Shown here: positions 4,761 to 17,608 of the stretch, one piece after another
Numbering within the stretch: the first letter of the stretch is position 1
How the letters are laid out: every line of letters starts with the position of its first letter
Translations under genes and position numbers: made by a program
IMG/VR virus record: IMGVR_UViG_3300022871_000117
Location: 1-23,440 of that record
DNA: 23,440 bases
DNA from: a virus
Reading direction: 5' to 3' (one strand)
Notes under the pieces: model-generated
Told to the model about the DNA's origin: nothing
Database searches by the model: none
Seen by the model: only the letters and a program-made list of their open reading frames with translations

Positions 4761-5524
4761 TATGCACTATGCCCATCTCGGAACTTCTTTGTTAGAGTCC
4801 CAGTTGTGTTTGTTGCGGTGACCGTTGATATGTTTGCGGCCGCATCCAATTTGAGAAGTCCGGTTGTTTTAGTTGTTACGATTGTTGGGCTTGTGTAGGA
4901 TGCATTGTTGTCAACTTCTATCACTCCGAATTTAGAGATGTTCAATCCGCTTCCAGATTCGATCATCTTCACGAAGGAATATCTGAAGTATGTGTTTCCG
5001 ACAAGGTCCGCCTCTTTGATTGTGATTTCATTTCCAAGAGCATCCGCCAAAACAATATCCCCAGCCCCATCATGCTGGCCTGTTATCTCTGTGACGAATG
5101 TTGTTATGTTCCCTGCATTAACTCCAGTTATCCTTTCAGTATCTCCGAAGAGTATTGCTAGGACTGTTTGGAAAGTTGCAACATAATCTACGAAGTTTGT
5201 TCGACCTCCGGAGTGTGTCTTTTTGCATTGACTAAGCATTCCCAAATAATATCTATCAGAAGTAAAATAAAGCCTTTGAAGTTCATTTGAGAATTGGAAT
5301 TTTGACAGGCTCTCGTAGTCTGTGTTTCTAGTGGATCCGGAGAAGTGCCCGGACAAAACTACCAGCTTTGCGTTGTTTCCTCCTCCGCTTACAACCATGT
5401 GATGGTTCTTGTATGGGATTGGGAAATATGTGTTGTTAGTATCGATTGGATCGTCGAAGCTATTTGGGTTATGTGGGAACGAGAATGTTCCAGTCTCATC
5501 ATTGAATTCTATTGATACTGCCAT
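4760..5524 (-). CDS. Distal tail protein (Dit-like), 254 aa
   Basis: The N-terminal half fits the Dit family: FPHNPNSFDDPID near the start, then a strand-rich part, and around residues 92-118 YYLGMLSQCKKTHSGGRTNF followed by VDYVATFQTV, which resembles the G-R-x-N-F-x-x-Y signature of phage distal tail proteins. The C-terminal half (about 140-254) is an extra beta-rich domain with T/N/G-rich strands, longer than a minimal Dit ring domain. The gene lies between the tape measure and the hub, as expected for the protein that closes the tail tube and holds the hub. Its start and stop overlap the neighbouring genes by one to a few bases. Confidence 0.7.
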   Translation of the reverse strand: MAVSIEFNDETGTFSFPHNPNSFDDPIDTNNTYFPIPYKNHHMVVSGGGNNAKLVVLSGHFSGSTRNTDYESLSKFQFSNELQRLYFTSDRYYLGMLSQCKKTHSGGRTNFVDYVATFQTVLAILFGDTERITGVNAGNITTFVTEITGQHDGAGDIVLADALGNEITIKEADLVGNTYFRYSFVKMIESGSGLNISKFGVIEVDNNASYTSPTIVTTKTTGLLKLDAAANISTVTATNTTGTLTKKFRDGHSA

Positions 5525-6288
5525 CAGAAATAAACAACTTGTGAGTCTGCGCCCCCCATCGCCATATCTTTTTGGGTTCTTTCTCTGTTTAAATATTGAA
5601 GCATTGCCGCACTTGATTCTTCATCTGTTAGTTTTCTTCCGAACGTGGGGTTTCCCATAATGCCACCGATGAAAAACTCTAGGAAGGATTGACTTGTGTC
5701 TTCTCCTCTGGCTTCAGACAAGTAAGTGTCAAAAACTTGGCCCAATAATGCTGTAGATAAACCAAGCCCTCCAACCGATCCGAACTTTGCTCCGGTTCCT
5801 ACTGCCGTTGGTAGTGCTCCCCCTTCAGCCGCAGCAGTTGCACCTCCAGCCCCTGGTATTGGTATCTTTTTGATTAAATTAATAAATTTAGAAACTGCCT
5901 TGTAAGCCACACCACCAACACCCAAAGCAGCAACGCTATTGACAATTCCACCGAATAAATCTGGATTCTGTTGTGCCCATCCGGATAAGTCCGTCATCCA
6001 TCCTGCGGCCGTCTCGAATGCCGGCGCAAGAGACTCTCCGATTGCCATTGATAATTCCAATCCTGCGACTTTCATTTGCGCCATGGATCCTGCGACTGCC
6101 GGGGCATTTTTTGCTATTGAGAATAATCCAACTCCTGCGGCCGCAACCCCAACAAAACTTGCGGAGATCCCTTTCGCACTTGATTCTGTTCTGACCATGT
6201 CTGAGTTTAGAGAATCGAATTTGTCTCCAAGTTGATCAATTGAAGAATTAAGACTTCGAACTGAGTCCTGGATTGACTGAGTATCCAT
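5524..6288 (-). CDS. Tape measure protein, unusually short, 254 aa
   Basis: Position identifies it: it follows the G/T chaperone pair and precedes the distal tail gene. The sequence agrees. Residues about 1-40 form an amphipathic coiled coil (SIQDSVRSLNSSIDQLGDKF), followed by Ala/Gly-rich hydrophobic segments (GVAAAGVGLFSIA, about 47-60, and NSVAALGVGGVAYKAV, about 118-133) and a Gly/Ala-rich stretch near 145-185. Typical tape measures have 600-2000 residues; at about 0.15 nm per residue this one predicts a tail near 38 nm. No lytic transglycosylase or peptidase domain is present. I see no sign that it is truncated: both ends fit tightly with the neighbouring genes. Confidence 0.7.
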   Translation of the reverse strand: MDTQSIQDSVRSLNSSIDQLGDKFDSLNSDMVRTESSAKGISASFVGVAAAGVGLFSIAKNAPAVAGSMAQMKVAGLELSMAIGESLAPAFETAAGWMTDLSGWAQQNPDLFGGIVNSVAALGVGGVAYKAVSKFINLIKKIPIPGAGGATAAAEGGALPTAVGTGAKFGSVGGLGLSTALLGQVFDTYLSEARGEDTSQSFLEFFIGGIMGNPTFGRKLTDEESSAAMLQYLNRERTQKDMAMGGADSQVVYF

Positions 6289-6314: not shown

Positions 6315-6548
6315 CTACAATATTCCCATCTCCTTCATTAGTTGGTTTTTGTTTTGGATGCTAATTTGTTTTTGATTCTTTGCCATTTTCATTTGTTTGA
6401 TGAATCTGAAATCTGCGGATTGGTTTTGTCTCCATTCGGTTGGACTGATTCCTTTCTCGTATGATTCGTACATATCTAAAAACAGAAGTTCTCGTGGGTC
6501 CTCAATGCCTATAACTCCGTCCTGTGAAATCAAAATCTTATTTATAAG
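6315..6548 (-). CDS. Tail assembly chaperone T part, expressed as a -1 frameshift G-T fusion
   Basis: This reading frame has no ATG near its start; the only initiator-like codon upstream of the conserved part is a TTG at 6533. The frame is open back to the A AAA AAC slip site at the end of the preceding gene. A -1 shift there continues as LINKILISQDG into this frame and gives a G-T protein of about 212 residues. The T part is 77 residues and mostly helical and basic near its end (KMAKNQKQISIQNKNQ), as in other tail assembly chaperone extensions. These proteins coat the tape measure during tail-tube assembly. The gene order G, G-T, tape measure is the classic siphovirus arrangement. Confidence 0.75.
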   Translation of the reverse strand, partial: LINKILISQDGVIGIEDPRELLFLDMYESYEKGISPTEWRQNQSADFRFIKQMKMAKNQKQISIQNKNQLMKEMGIL

Positions 6549-6952
6549 TTTTTTTTTACAGAGTCATCTTGGAATTCCACTTTATTGATTCCTGTCATTA
6601 GTTTACCCATCAAATCTGAACTCAACTTGCATAAAAATTCTTCTCTTTTCTTAGCTGGCAGATCCTTAAATTCTGAATCAATCATCAGTATCTTTTTGAC
6701 ATGCTCTTTTGAATATGGAGCCTCTAAAATATTTCTTAATTTGCACTTGTTTAACTTTCCAAAATTTTGCCTAGTTGTTTGGACCATTTTCCCTTCGACC
6801 TCTGCATCGACTATCTCCATGTAGTCTGGGGCCCAGTCTAGCTCATCCGAGTTGCTTACTTTCTTATATCTAAAAGTCCGGCCATCAACAACTACGTCAA
6901 CTATCTCTCCGGCTTCCAAATTAAAATCAGAAAAATCAGTAGGAGAATCCAT
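6542..6952 (-). CDS. Tail assembly chaperone G, 136 aa
   Basis: The gene follows the tail tube gene, overlapping it by 17 nt, and precedes the tape measure, which is the place of gpG-type chaperones. The N-terminal 45 residues are acidic and strand-like (FNLEAGEIVDVVVDGRTFRYKK); the rest is helical (for example KKILMIDSEFKDLPAKKREEF). It ends in VKKNL just after a run of nine A residues in the message. Ribosomes that slip back one base there make the G-T fusion. Sequence similarity to a named family is not obvious by eye, so identity rests on synteny plus the frameshift signal. Confidence 0.75.
   Translation of the reverse strand: MDSPTDFSDFNLEAGEIVDVVVDGRTFRYKKVSNSDELDWAPDYMEIVDAEVEGKMVQTTRQNFGKLNKCKLRNILEAPYSKEHVKKILMIDSEFKDLPAKKREEFLCKLSSDLMGKLMTGINKVEFQDDSVKKNL
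6548..6554 (-). promoter_or_regulatory. Programmed -1 ribosomal frameshift site A AAA AAC
   Basis: The message reads GTA AAA AAA AAC TTA TAA in the frame of the G gene. The last seven bases before TTA form the canonical X XXY YYZ heptamer A AAA AAC in the correct phase, inside a run of nine A residues (6549-6557). The stop codon of the zero frame follows two codons later, and the -1 frame is open for 78 codons including its stop. No clear stimulatory hairpin is seen downstream. Confidence 0.75.
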
Positions 6953-7901
6953 CTTCGCCTGTTATCGTGAGATTAAGTGGAACGCCAACCAAGTCAATCG
7001 GGGAAACGCCTTGCATGTTTGTCGCGCCTATTGGGGCCGTGCTTAGTCTCATACTATTTAGTTGAAAAGAAATAAAATTGTGAGTATCAACTTGCAGCTT
7101 GATTATGTTGCTCCCTGCCAGAACTGTGCCGTTATCCCAATCATCAAAAAAACTACTATCACTAGGATTAATGTTCATCGTCATTCCGTATCTTTTTAGT
7201 GTGCAGATTGGTTCTCCCAACTCACGATCGAGTGTGTAGTTGCAGTATCTTGAATCGTCTTCGTTTATTCCGTTGTTGCATCTTATCTCTCCGGAATTAA
7301 CCTCAACAACCTCTCCGCCTTCGTATGTGAATGTTTGGTTGAAGAATCTGTATGCAGTTGCTGTTGGGTATGCGATTGTTGTGATTGCGGTCCCTTTGCT
7401 ATATCCACTTGCAACACACTCAGCCTCAACCGTTACGAATCCGTCCGTTGGTCCGGTTCCTTTCTGCCATGCGAATCTCCAGGACTTGATTGTGCATCCT
7501 GTCAGAGTGATCACTTCATTGGTTGCCAATCTTTTGGCCCATTCATATTGGAAAGTTTTGACTGGGTTGTCTATAGTCCACACGTGCTCGTTGTAGGTAG
7601 TTTTGTCGACGTTCGTAACATCTGGATGAGTTGAATATTTTATGAAAGAAAAATTGTAAGGTGTGAATTTTAGGGTGAAGTTTAACTTAAGTGCGCCTTG
7701 CTCCATGTCTTTAACTTCTGCATTGTCTCCTCCGTTGTTTAGGATCTCTTGCCAGTTCTGATCGAAGTCCGGAGTGAAGATTGTGTTGTAACCTACGATT
7801 TCCCCATCGTCGACCATAGTGTTCGTTCCAAGATTCTTAAAACCGCCTTGCTCCTCTACCCATGCATTCTGTTCTCTCGAGCCTACATCATATTCACTCA
7901 T
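6936..7901 (-). CDS. Major tail tube protein, 321 aa
   Basis: The protein is beta-rich, without membrane segments, and lies between the tail terminator and the chaperone genes, the standard place of the tail tube protein. The start MSEYDVGSREQNAWVEEQG and the following GYNTIFTPDFDQNWQEIL resemble tube proteins of other tailed archaeal viruses in style. At 321 residues it is longer than a simple tube subunit (about 150-250), so it may carry an extra surface domain, possibly in the C-terminal third. The start overlaps the terminator stop by four bases (ATGA). The call is by position and fold pattern, not by a catalytic motif. Confidence 0.7.
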   Translation of the reverse strand: MSEYDVGSREQNAWVEEQGGFKNLGTNTMVDDGEIVGYNTIFTPDFDQNWQEILNNGGDNAEVKDMEQGALKLNFTLKFTPYNFSFIKYSTHPDVTNVDKTTYNEHVWTIDNPVKTFQYEWAKRLATNEVITLTGCTIKSWRFAWQKGTGPTDGFVTVEAECVASGYSKGTAITTIAYPTATAYRFFNQTFTYEGGEVVEVNSGEIRCNNGINEDDSRYCNYTLDRELGEPICTLKRYGMTMNINPSDSSFFDDWDNGTVLAGSNIIKLQVDTHNFISFQLNSMRLSTAPIGATNMQGVSPIDLVGVPLNLTITGEDGFSY

Positions 7902-10360: not shown

Positions 10361-13180
10361 TTAATTAAATGTTTCTATTGATTTAATTGTTGGAGTTATG
10401 TTCTCGGAAACCTTGATTGTGGGGACTATGTTTTCAGACATCTTAATTGTTGGTTTAAAAGTGTCAGTTATTCTTATAGTTGCATTAGAGGTCTTCTCGA
10501 ATAATATCCGAAATAAAACTCTGGCATCTCCGGTTTTTTGGATTTGGTTATCGTTTATCTTAATCCTTGCAGTTGCGGTTTTGTCGATTTGGCTTTGAAT
10601 TTTTATTCTAGAGTTGGCTGTTTTTTGGATTTGGCTTTGGATTAATATTCTAGCATCGGAGTTTTTGTCGATTTGATTTTGAATTAAGATTCTTGCAGTT
10701 GAGGTTTTATCGAAAGAGTCTTGGATTAGAATCCTGGAGTTGGCTGTTTTGTTAAGTTCGTTATTGTTGATTTGAATTCTAACATCGGAGTTTTTAATAA
10801 ATGAGTTAATAGATCGAATATAGGCAGTTCCATTTTTTGTGAATTCTGTGTTGTTGATTTGAATACTTGCAGTTGCGTCATAGACTTGCTCAGTATCATT
10901 AACTTGTACTCTAGAGGTTCCGGTTTTTGTGAAGGAATCTTGTGTTTGAATTCTAGCATCGGAGTTTTTAATAAAGGAGTCTTGGAATACAATTATGGAG
11001 TTTGCTGTTTTATTGAATTGGTTGTCTATGATTTTTATCCTTGCAGTTGCGGTTTTGTCGATTTGGCTTTGAATTTTTATTCTAGAGTTGGCTGTTTTGG
11101 TGAAGGAGTCTTGGATTAGGATTCTGGCTTTGGCTTCTTTAGTGAATTGACTTTGAATTAAGATTCTTGAGTTGGCTGTTTTGGTGAAGGAGTCTTGGAT
11201 TAGGATTCTGGCGTTGGAGTTTTTATTGAATTGGTTATTGTTGATTTTTATTCTAGAGTTGGCGGTTTTGTTTATTTGACTTTGGATTAGAATCCTTGCT
11301 ATTGAATCCTTTGTGAATTGATTGCCTTGTATCTCTATACTTGAATTTCCTGTCTTGGTGAATTCTGTGTTGTTTATTTCTATTCTTGAGTTGGCGGTTT
11401 TGTTGAAAGAATCTTGTGTTTGGATTCTGGAGTTTGCTGTTTTATTGAAGGAGTGTTGTAATATAATTAATGCAGTTCCATTTTTTGTGAATTCTGTATT
11501 GTTGATTTTTATTCTAGAGTTGGCGGTTTTGTTGAATAATAGTTGCCTTTGAATTCTTGCATTTGCTGGTTTTGTGAATGTTATTGGGGCTTTGACTGCC
11601 GTGAAAGTTCCGTCTGCTGTGAATGTATGAACAGTATTTGAGCCATCAGTTGTGATTGTTCCACCTGTGCAATCTCCAAAGTCAGCCGTAACATATGAAA
11701 TAATAACAATACCAGAACCACCAGATGCACCAACATCTCCTGCTCCACTACCACCTCCTCCACCTCCGGTGTTTGCAGTTCCAGCTGTCCCAACATCTGA
11801 ACTTCCGTCTCCGCCTCCGCCTAAACCACCACTACCGACAGTCCCTGAACTGTACATTCCTCCACCTCCACCTCCGCCATAATAAGTAGATGTTCCGCTT
11901 ATCGGATTTGAAAATCCATCCCCACCATCTCCTGACACAGAAGCAGTCGCATCAGAACCATTTTGACTTCCTCCTCCGCCTCCGCCTGTTGGATATGGGA
12001 AACTATCATATATGCACTTTCCACCATCAGCACCCTGAGAACCTGTTCCACCTATTGCTGAAGAGTTGGTACTACCTGCTCCTCCCCCACAACCGCCATT
12101 TATTCCACTAGTATATCTATTACCTCCTCCTCCTCCTCCGGTTGTGGATATAAAAGGAAAAGTACTATTACCACCTGCAGACCCACTAGTTCCACCAGTT
12201 CCTCCGGCCCCTCCATCCCCAACAACAACAGAGTATGCTTGTGCGATTACTGATAATGCCGAGTTGAATGATAAACCACCAGCCCCACCTCCTCCTCCGC
12301 CATTTGCTCCTCCACCTCCGCCTCCAGCGACAACTAATGCCTTTATTGTTCCGATGAAACTTGGAATTTGGATTCTGGCATTTGCATCATAAACTTGGGT
12401 GTTATCGTCTATCTTTATTCTAGCTGTTGCGGTTTTGTCGATTTGGCTTTGAATTTTTATTCTAGAGTTGGCTGTTTTGGTGAAGGAGTCTTGGATTAGG
12501 ATTCTTGAGTTTCCTGTTTTTGTGAAGGAGGCAGATGTTGAGAATGGATAAGCCAAACCATCTCCAGAATTATAAAGTTCCCCTACTTCTGTTGAGTTTA
12601 ATTCTCTTGACCATATACCTACTTCGTCGATTAAACCATTAAAACCAAAACTCGCAGTCGGTTGTGCGATTCCCATACTTAAACTTCCTGCTGTTGTCCA
12701 GATACTAGAAGTTATTGTATTTTTTAATACCCCATCGTTATAAACATAAGAATTAGTCCCATCGTTAGTTATTACTGTGTGATGCCAATCATTATCATTC
12801 CATAAAATAGAGCTTAATTCGTTATCTGTTGAACCAATTTTTAACCTCATATAATTACTGTTTGAATATCTTGCAAATTGGAACCCCGTAGTATCACTAG
12901 TTCCTTGTCCTATTAGACTCCTCCAAGTAGTTCCTCCAATCCAACTATCTACTTTCCACCAAAAAGAAAGACTTTTTATATTAGAACTTAAGGTAGTAGT
13001 AACTTTGTCATCGACTCCATCAAAATCAAAAGCACTATTTATCTTCCCACTAGCATCATATAAATTAGCTGTGTTCGTTGAGGCTGTCCCATCGTTAGAA
13101 CCATGAGCATCATCAACAGTCGTACTAGCTGCGTTCTCGTCTAACTTATAATAAGCAATAAGGTTGTCTGTTAACGCCAT
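10361..13180 (-). CDS. LamG / glycine-rich / repeat adhesin (fibre protein), 939 aa
   Basis: Domains in order: a LamG/concanavalin-like lectin domain (about 1-212: NLIAYYKLDENA, AFDFDGVDDKV, HHTVITNDGT, GLIDEVGIWSREL); four short repeats (about 217-275); a glycine-rich domain (about 280-500) that starts IKALVVAGGGGGG and ends GGSGIVIISYV, as in known glycine-rich receptor-binding domains of tail fibres; about 26 further repeats (about 535-905) of 14-15 residues with consensus F-x-K-T-A-N-S-R-I-x-I-Q; and three PTIK repeats at the end. The repeats are likely a beta-solenoid shaft or stalk. The role is probably receptor or glycan binding on the host surface. The gene lies between capsid and neck genes, so the fibre might sit on the head or neck instead of the tail tip. 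Its ATG overlaps the stop of the 139-aa gene (TAATG). Confidence 0.85.
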   Translation of the reverse strand: MALTDNLIAYYKLDENAASTTVDDAHGSNDGTASTNTANLYDASGKINSAFDFDGVDDKVTTTLSSNIKSLSFWWKVDSWIGGTTWRSLIGQGTSDTTGFQFARYSNSNYMRLKIGSTDNELSSILWNDNDWHHTVITNDGTNSYVYNDGVLKNTITSSIWTTAGSLSMGIAQPTASFGFNGLIDEVGIWSRELNSTEVGELYNSGDGLAYPFSTSASFTKTGNSRILIQDSFTKTANSRIKIQSQIDKTATARIKIDDNTQVYDANARIQIPSFIGTIKALVVAGGGGGGANGGGGGGAGGLSFNSALSVIAQAYSVVVGDGGAGGTGGTSGSAGGNSTFPFISTTGGGGGGNRYTSGINGGCGGGAGSTNSSAIGGTGSQGADGGKCIYDSFPYPTGGGGGGSQNGSDATASVSGDGGDGFSNPISGTSTYYGGGGGGGMYSSGTVGSGGLGGGGDGSSDVGTAGTANTGGGGGGSGAGDVGASGGSGIVIISYVTADFGDCTGGTITTDGSNTVHTFTADGTFTAVKAPITFTKPANARIQRQLLFNKTANSRIKINNTEFTKNGTALIILQHSFNKTANSRIQTQDSFNKTANSRIEINNTEFTKTGNSSIEIQGNQFTKDSIARILIQSQINKTANSRIKINNNQFNKNSNARILIQDSFTKTANSRILIQSQFTKEAKARILIQDSFTKTANSRIKIQSQIDKTATARIKIIDNQFNKTANSIIVFQDSFIKNSDARIQTQDSFTKTGTSRVQVNDTEQVYDATASIQINNTEFTKNGTAYIRSINSFIKNSDVRIQINNNELNKTANSRILIQDSFDKTSTARILIQNQIDKNSDARILIQSQIQKTANSRIKIQSQIDKTATARIKINDNQIQKTGDARVLFRILFEKTSNATIRITDTFKPTIKMSENIVPTIKVSENITPTIKSIETFN
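10563..10624. repeat. 62-bp perfect direct repeat, copy A
   Basis: This stretch matches 11037-11098 base for base (62 bp). It encodes two adhesin repeat units including KTATARIKI. Confidence 0.85.
11046..11125. repeat. 80-bp perfect direct repeat, copy B
   Basis: This stretch is identical to 12426-12505 over 80 bp; both copies start GTTGCGGTTTTGTCG and end GGATTAGGATTCT. Copies are 1380 bp apart (a multiple of three), so a crossover between them would delete the glycine-rich domain in frame. Confidence 0.9.
12370..12540 (-). repeat. Short repeat block upstream of the glycine-rich domain (4 units)
   Basis: Four units of the same 14-15-residue repeat lie between the LamG and glycine-rich domains (FTKTGNSRI, FTKTANSRI, IDKTATARI, and QVYDANARI). 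The QVYDA variant recurs once in the larger block as QVYDATASI. Confidence 0.8.
12426..12505. repeat. 80-bp perfect direct repeat, copy C
   Basis: This is the second copy of the 80-bp repeat at 11046-11125. The two copies bracket the whole glycine-rich coding region plus about twelve repeat units. Confidence 0.9.
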
Positions 13181-17516: not shown

Positions 17517-17534
17517 ACCCTAAATTTAGCCGAT

Positions 17535-17608
17535 GCAAACAGCAGGGAATCGAACTCTGCACCTCAAGATATAAATACCTTACGCCCTTGCCTTTGGACT
17601 ATGCTTGC
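17535..17608 (-). tRNA. tRNA-like gene with an abnormal anticodon loop (anticodon not assignable)
   Basis: The minus strand folds as a cloverleaf: acceptor GCAAGCA with TGTTTGC (7 bp, one G-U), TA at positions 8-9, D arm GTCC-AAAGGCAA-GGGC, variable loop AGGTG, and T arm CAGAG-TTCGATT-CCCTG (one A-C mismatch). Two things are odd. The anticodon arm pairs as TAAGG with TCTTG, leaving an eight-base loop TATTTATA, or AAGGT with ATCTT, leaving six; a seven-base loop cannot be formed. And one extra C lies between the T stem and the acceptor strand. No CCA is encoded. It is either a decayed tRNA, a frameshift-suppressor-like tRNA, or a tRNA mimic. Confidence 0.6.

Follow-up and report, generated by a model that had tools for sequence, protein, structure and literature searches.

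A probable G/GT tail-chaperone -1 frameshift in a diverged lineage of uncultured tailed viruses

The window analysed here is the whole of an IMG/VR record, 23,440 bases in length. Two contigs near-identical to it in the terminase (L002 and L003) span the window at that end, and L002 extends past it, so the window is a fragment of the virus genome. The structural genes all lie on the minus strand and follow the customary order of terminase, portal, capsid, neck proteins, tail tube, G, T, tape measure, distal tail protein and baseplate, with the neck and distal-tail names of the less conserved genes assigned from position. G and T are two small open reading frames between the tail tube and tape-measure genes, and the features of this interval are the following.

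6936 to 7901, minus strand: major tail tube protein, 321 aa (Pfam Phage_tube_2, E 8.4e-6, 26.0 bits against a curated cut-off of 27; conserved in relatives)
6542 to 6952, minus strand: G, putative tail assembly chaperone, the product of standard translation, 136 aa (open reading frame; conserved in L005, L089, L090, L091 and L092; predicted fold)
6551 to 6557, minus strand: slippery heptamer A AAA AAA, in phase (sequence)
6548 to 6554, minus strand: slippery heptamer A AAA AAC, in phase (sequence; A AAA AAN class in five of five relatives)
6315 to 6548, minus strand: T domain in the -1 frame, 77 codons and TAG (open frame, codon usage, tblastn, alignment)
5524 to 6288, minus strand: short tape-measure protein, 254 aa (PHROG tail length tape measure protein, E 1.8e-4; conserved in relatives)

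By the customary rule of 1.5 Å per residue, a tape measure of 254 residues (269-270 aa in L005 and L086) would correspond to a tail roughly 35-40 nm long, which is unusually short. Elsewhere in the structural region, between the capsid and neck genes (10361-13180, minus strand), is a 939-aa protein that combines a LamG-like and a glycine-rich domain with numerous short KTANSRI-type repeats; it has a shorter homologue at L005 10064-11653 and is likely a host-binding adhesin. A tRNA-like element at 17534-17608 on the minus strand (Rfam tRNA, 33.2 bits, without an ARAGORN call) has an extra mismatched pair in the T-stem and an irregular anticodon loop, and is possibly a degenerate or unusual viral tRNA.

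Read directly on the minus strand, positions 6559-6542 are GTA AAA AAA AAC TTA TAA, the 3' end of G, in which the nine A residues occupy 6557-6549 and the zero-frame stop 6544-6542. The first-pass annotation had described G as ending with an in-phase A AAA AAC, and the sequence bears this out; what that description left out is the overlapping A AAA AAA, which is also in phase. It had further described a -1 frame that is open and has no ATG at its start, and this too stands: the frame runs from 6548 to 6318 as 77 sense codons, followed by TAG at 6317-6315, and its first ATG is at 6473, with none before the 26th codon. A TTG is present in the T frame at 6533, without a Shine-Dalgarno match. On its upstream side the -1 frame opens at a TGA 22 nt before the G stop, so that any shift is confined to those 22 nt, and the A-run is the sole slippery site in this overlap. 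A search for Rfam frameshift elements gave none at the slip site.

The genes of the window, 7023 codons in all, contain 63 in-phase heptamers of the X XXY YYZ form, about 20 of which are A AAA AAN, a background for the latter of about 0.3% per codon. At every A AAA AAN site other than the pair in this A-run, the -1 frame stays open for at most 56 codons, the nearest of these sites being an AAAAAAT at 6112 in the middle of the tape-measure gene. Two heptamers of other types, close to where the tape-measure gene ends, do have long open -1 frames downstream, which enter the next annotated gene, itself provided with its own ATG. When the T region was shuffled with dinucleotides preserved, 0.9% of the shuffles gave an open frame of 77 codons, and at 1.7% of in-gene codon positions the -1 frame is open for 76 codons or more. 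The codon usage of the T frame is that of the virus, scoring +6.9 bits where the two remaining frames of the strand score -65 and -32.

Relatives were found by several routes: L005 by a capsid scan (84% capsid identity), L086/L092 by a scan with a terminase alignment followed by a tube search, and L089, L090 and L091 with a three-sequence tube alignment. Scans of viral contigs with G alone, the tube alone or the distal tail protein found no close relatives. The five contigs compared below (L005, L089, L090, L091 and L092) represent four further lineages, L090 and L091 being about 97% identical and thus one lineage, too close for a dN/dS estimate on T, and L092 being the same virus as L086. Their G proteins are 34-46% identical to that of the window and their tubes 30-53%. 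All five have the order tube, G, T, tape measure with T in the -1 frame, and in each an in-phase A AAA AAN heptamer falls within the short G/T overlap; no slippery heptamer occurs in that overlap outside the A-run, in the window or the five relatives. The slip sites compare as follows.

Window: A9C, overlap 22 nt
L005: GTA AAA AAA AAG TAA (A9G), overlap 22 nt
L092: TCA AAA AAA AAA GAA TAA (A10G), overlap 52 nt
L089: GGT AAA AAA AAA TTT CAA (A9T), overlap 49 nt
L090/L091: ATA AAA AAC GAA TAG (A6C), overlap 16 nt

In L089 a TAA abutting the A-run closes the -1 frame, and in L090/L091 a TGA just before the run does the same; in these contigs a slip there must therefore take place at the heptamer itself. 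T was matched by tblastn in L089 (E 7e-5) and in L090/L091 (E 8e-4), and the T alignment contains a conserved G-I-(S/T) motif. None of the relatives has an ATG within the first 12 codons of the T frame, the first lying some 12 to 28 codons in, and while the positions of these start codons are not conserved, the frame upstream of the first ATG is open and has similar residues. The comparison of heptamer and missing ATG that the first-pass annotation proposed thus came out in favour of its prediction, and the contrary cases it named, a relative in which T has a normal start or one with the heptamer destroyed and both frames kept, were sought in the five contigs and neither was encountered. In L005 one neck/tail gene is missing its first 57 codons, and G has a frame-breaking deletion upstream of the site; these defects, at L005:13354-13375 and L005:14990-15010, are either assembly faults or real damage, and the deletion in G makes L005 an imperfect contig as support.

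The identity of G was examined through its predicted structure, an AlphaFold model built from six sequences (mean pLDDT 81). The top Foldseek match of this model in BFVD is the tail assembly chaperone of Bacillus phage Gemini (E 3.5e-3, probability 1.00), further tail or tape-measure chaperones are among the next matches at a probability of at least 0.92, and FS-gp41 of phage Mu is among them at 0.96. VIA-align ranks YqbN of B. subtilis (PDB 3klu) first (Z 7.4, rmsd 4.3, 101 residues). These scores are modest and concern fold only, the likeness to YqbN and FS-gp41 being accompanied by about 12-13% identity, and Foldseek gave no usable match for G in the PDB. The modelled G therefore resembles the tail-chaperone fold. 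Neither G nor T has a significant Pfam or PHROG family match; one T member gave a weak match to PHROG 9001, a tail assembly chaperone family, at E 0.12. In the model of T (mean pLDDT 82) a helix lies on either side of the conserved Gly-Ile turn. T has no significant fold match in BFVD or profile match, and its assignment rests on position, frame and conservation.

Inspection of the RNA downstream of the slip site, which the first-pass annotation had suggested as a check, gave a divided result. In L090/L091 a 7-bp stem lies just 3' of the site (L090:3808-3895, z -2.75 versus shuffles), and L092 has a strong hairpin (L092:7321-7410, z -3.9 versus shuffles). The window itself has downstream RNA of no unusual stability (z +0.8; +1.3, -0.8 and +1.1 at other lengths), and no unusual structure was found downstream of the site in L005 or L089. 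No internal Shine-Dalgarno stimulator is apparent in the window. The stem in L090/L091 may compensate for their shorter A-run, a suggestion drawn from few cases.

An alternative raised at the outset is that the frames are joined in the mRNA, through slippage of RNA polymerase on the nine A residues to give some transcripts with one extra A (or two fewer). Nine or ten A residues in a row suffice for such slippage, and the window, L005, L089 and L092 have runs of this length. In L090/L091, however, the same frame relation is kept with six A residues and then C, an exact A AAA AAC on which the polymerase is not expected to slip efficiently, and it is the in-phase heptamer that is conserved across the contigs and not the length of the run. 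Because of the six-A site of L090/L091, polymerase slippage, a topic reviewed elsewhere (PMC5009743), is improbable as the general mechanism.

It is also very improbable that T is a separate protein, started in the -1 frame at the TTG at 6533 or the ATG at 6473 and coupled to termination of G. The window, L089, L090/L091 and L092 do have a Met at a similar position, 7-8 residues ahead of the conserved Gly-Ile, and with a Shine-Dalgarno-like motif at just 7 of 23 gene starts examined (versus 16% of random positions) the missing ribosome site at T is weak evidence against such a start. But ATG is the start codon of all 23 of these other genes, L089, L090, L091 and L092 have no TTG close to the beginning of T, and the TTG of L005 is not aligned with that of the window. 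L005 moreover has no internal Met, and a start at the internal ATG would leave unexplained both the heptamer and the open, similar frame upstream. Finally, that a homopolymer sequencing or assembly error has split one continuous gene is scarcely credible, for although homopolymers are error-prone and one extra A in the run of the window would fuse G and T, the split recurs in independently assembled contigs, including L090/L091 with their six A residues, and a zero-frame stop follows 0 to 14 codons after the site in every contig.

Slippage by the ribosome accounts for all five contigs, and we conclude that G and T are very probably a G/GT tail-assembly-chaperone pair made by programmed -1 ribosomal frameshifting. 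What the analysis itself establishes is the slip site, the open -1 frame with its codon usage, the conservation of the arrangement among relatives and the likeness of the predicted G fold to chaperones, and the frameshift joining G and T that had been predicted is, with five contigs and the G fold behind it, strongly supported; the slippage itself, its efficiency and the binding roles of the products are what we infer from these. Most ribosomes would reach the TAA of G and release the 136-aa chaperone, and a minority would slip back by one base with the codons GTA AAA AAA AAC in the ribosome and continue in the -1 frame to give a G-T fusion of about 212 aa. If the parallel with lambda holds, the tape-measure protein (5524-6288), as the expected client of G, would be coated by it, and the fusion would use its T part to bring in the tail-tube protein (6936-7901), the expected partner of T.

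The slip site of phage lambda is G GGA AAG, and the A AAA AAA / A AAA AAC of the window differs from it. In other respects the likeness to the lambda G/GT pair that the first-pass annotation had pointed out is sound: both have the order tube, G, T, tape measure, and in both the T frame lies at -1 and is reached by a shift close to where G ends (PMC5009743). Conservation of the G-T shift is widespread among long-tailed phages (PMC5009743), and a -1 shift from G into T has also been put forward in the haloarchaeal siphoviruses HVTV-1 and HCTV-1, -2 and -5, the site in HCTV-2 being A_AAA_AAC (PMC5009743, PMC8211752). The window resembles these viruses in its proposed -1 joining of G and T, and shares the heptamer of HCTV-2; they differ from it in having known hosts. 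With such shifts already proposed in these four viruses, the site would be no novelty in kind even in an archaeal virus. No sequence similarity was found between the G of the window and any annotated phage G, and protein searches with G, tube and capsid matched none of the records in the phage collection. The finding is a well-supported but ordinary addition to the known class of G/GT tail-chaperone frameshifts.

An archaeal host had been assumed from the start, and no test here shows one. The terminase is closest to those of Bacteroidetes phages (35-44% identity), the structural proteins tested gave no match pointing to a host, and scans of genome contigs with capsid and terminase alignments found no provirus. 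One weak BFVD fold match of G is a protein of an uncultured archaeal virus, and the scarcity of Shine-Dalgarno matches does not discriminate between candidate hosts. We regard as tentative, and rather unlikely, the reading in which this virus group infects non-haloarchaeal archaea, archaeal ribosomes shift efficiently on A AAA AAC, and poly-A length and a downstream stem serve as interchangeable boosters between lineages; efficient shifting enters that reading because the L090/L091 site alone would require it.

With this locus and its relatives, a diverged lineage of uncultured tailed viruses joins those that keep the G/GT frameshift, and it offers natural variants of the slip site (A6C, A9C, A9G, A9T and A10G) and of the downstream structure that are directly comparable. 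To our knowledge, few examples are known of -1 frameshifting by archaeal ribosomes, and if the host were archaeal, the site would be a short, AT-rich test case of it.
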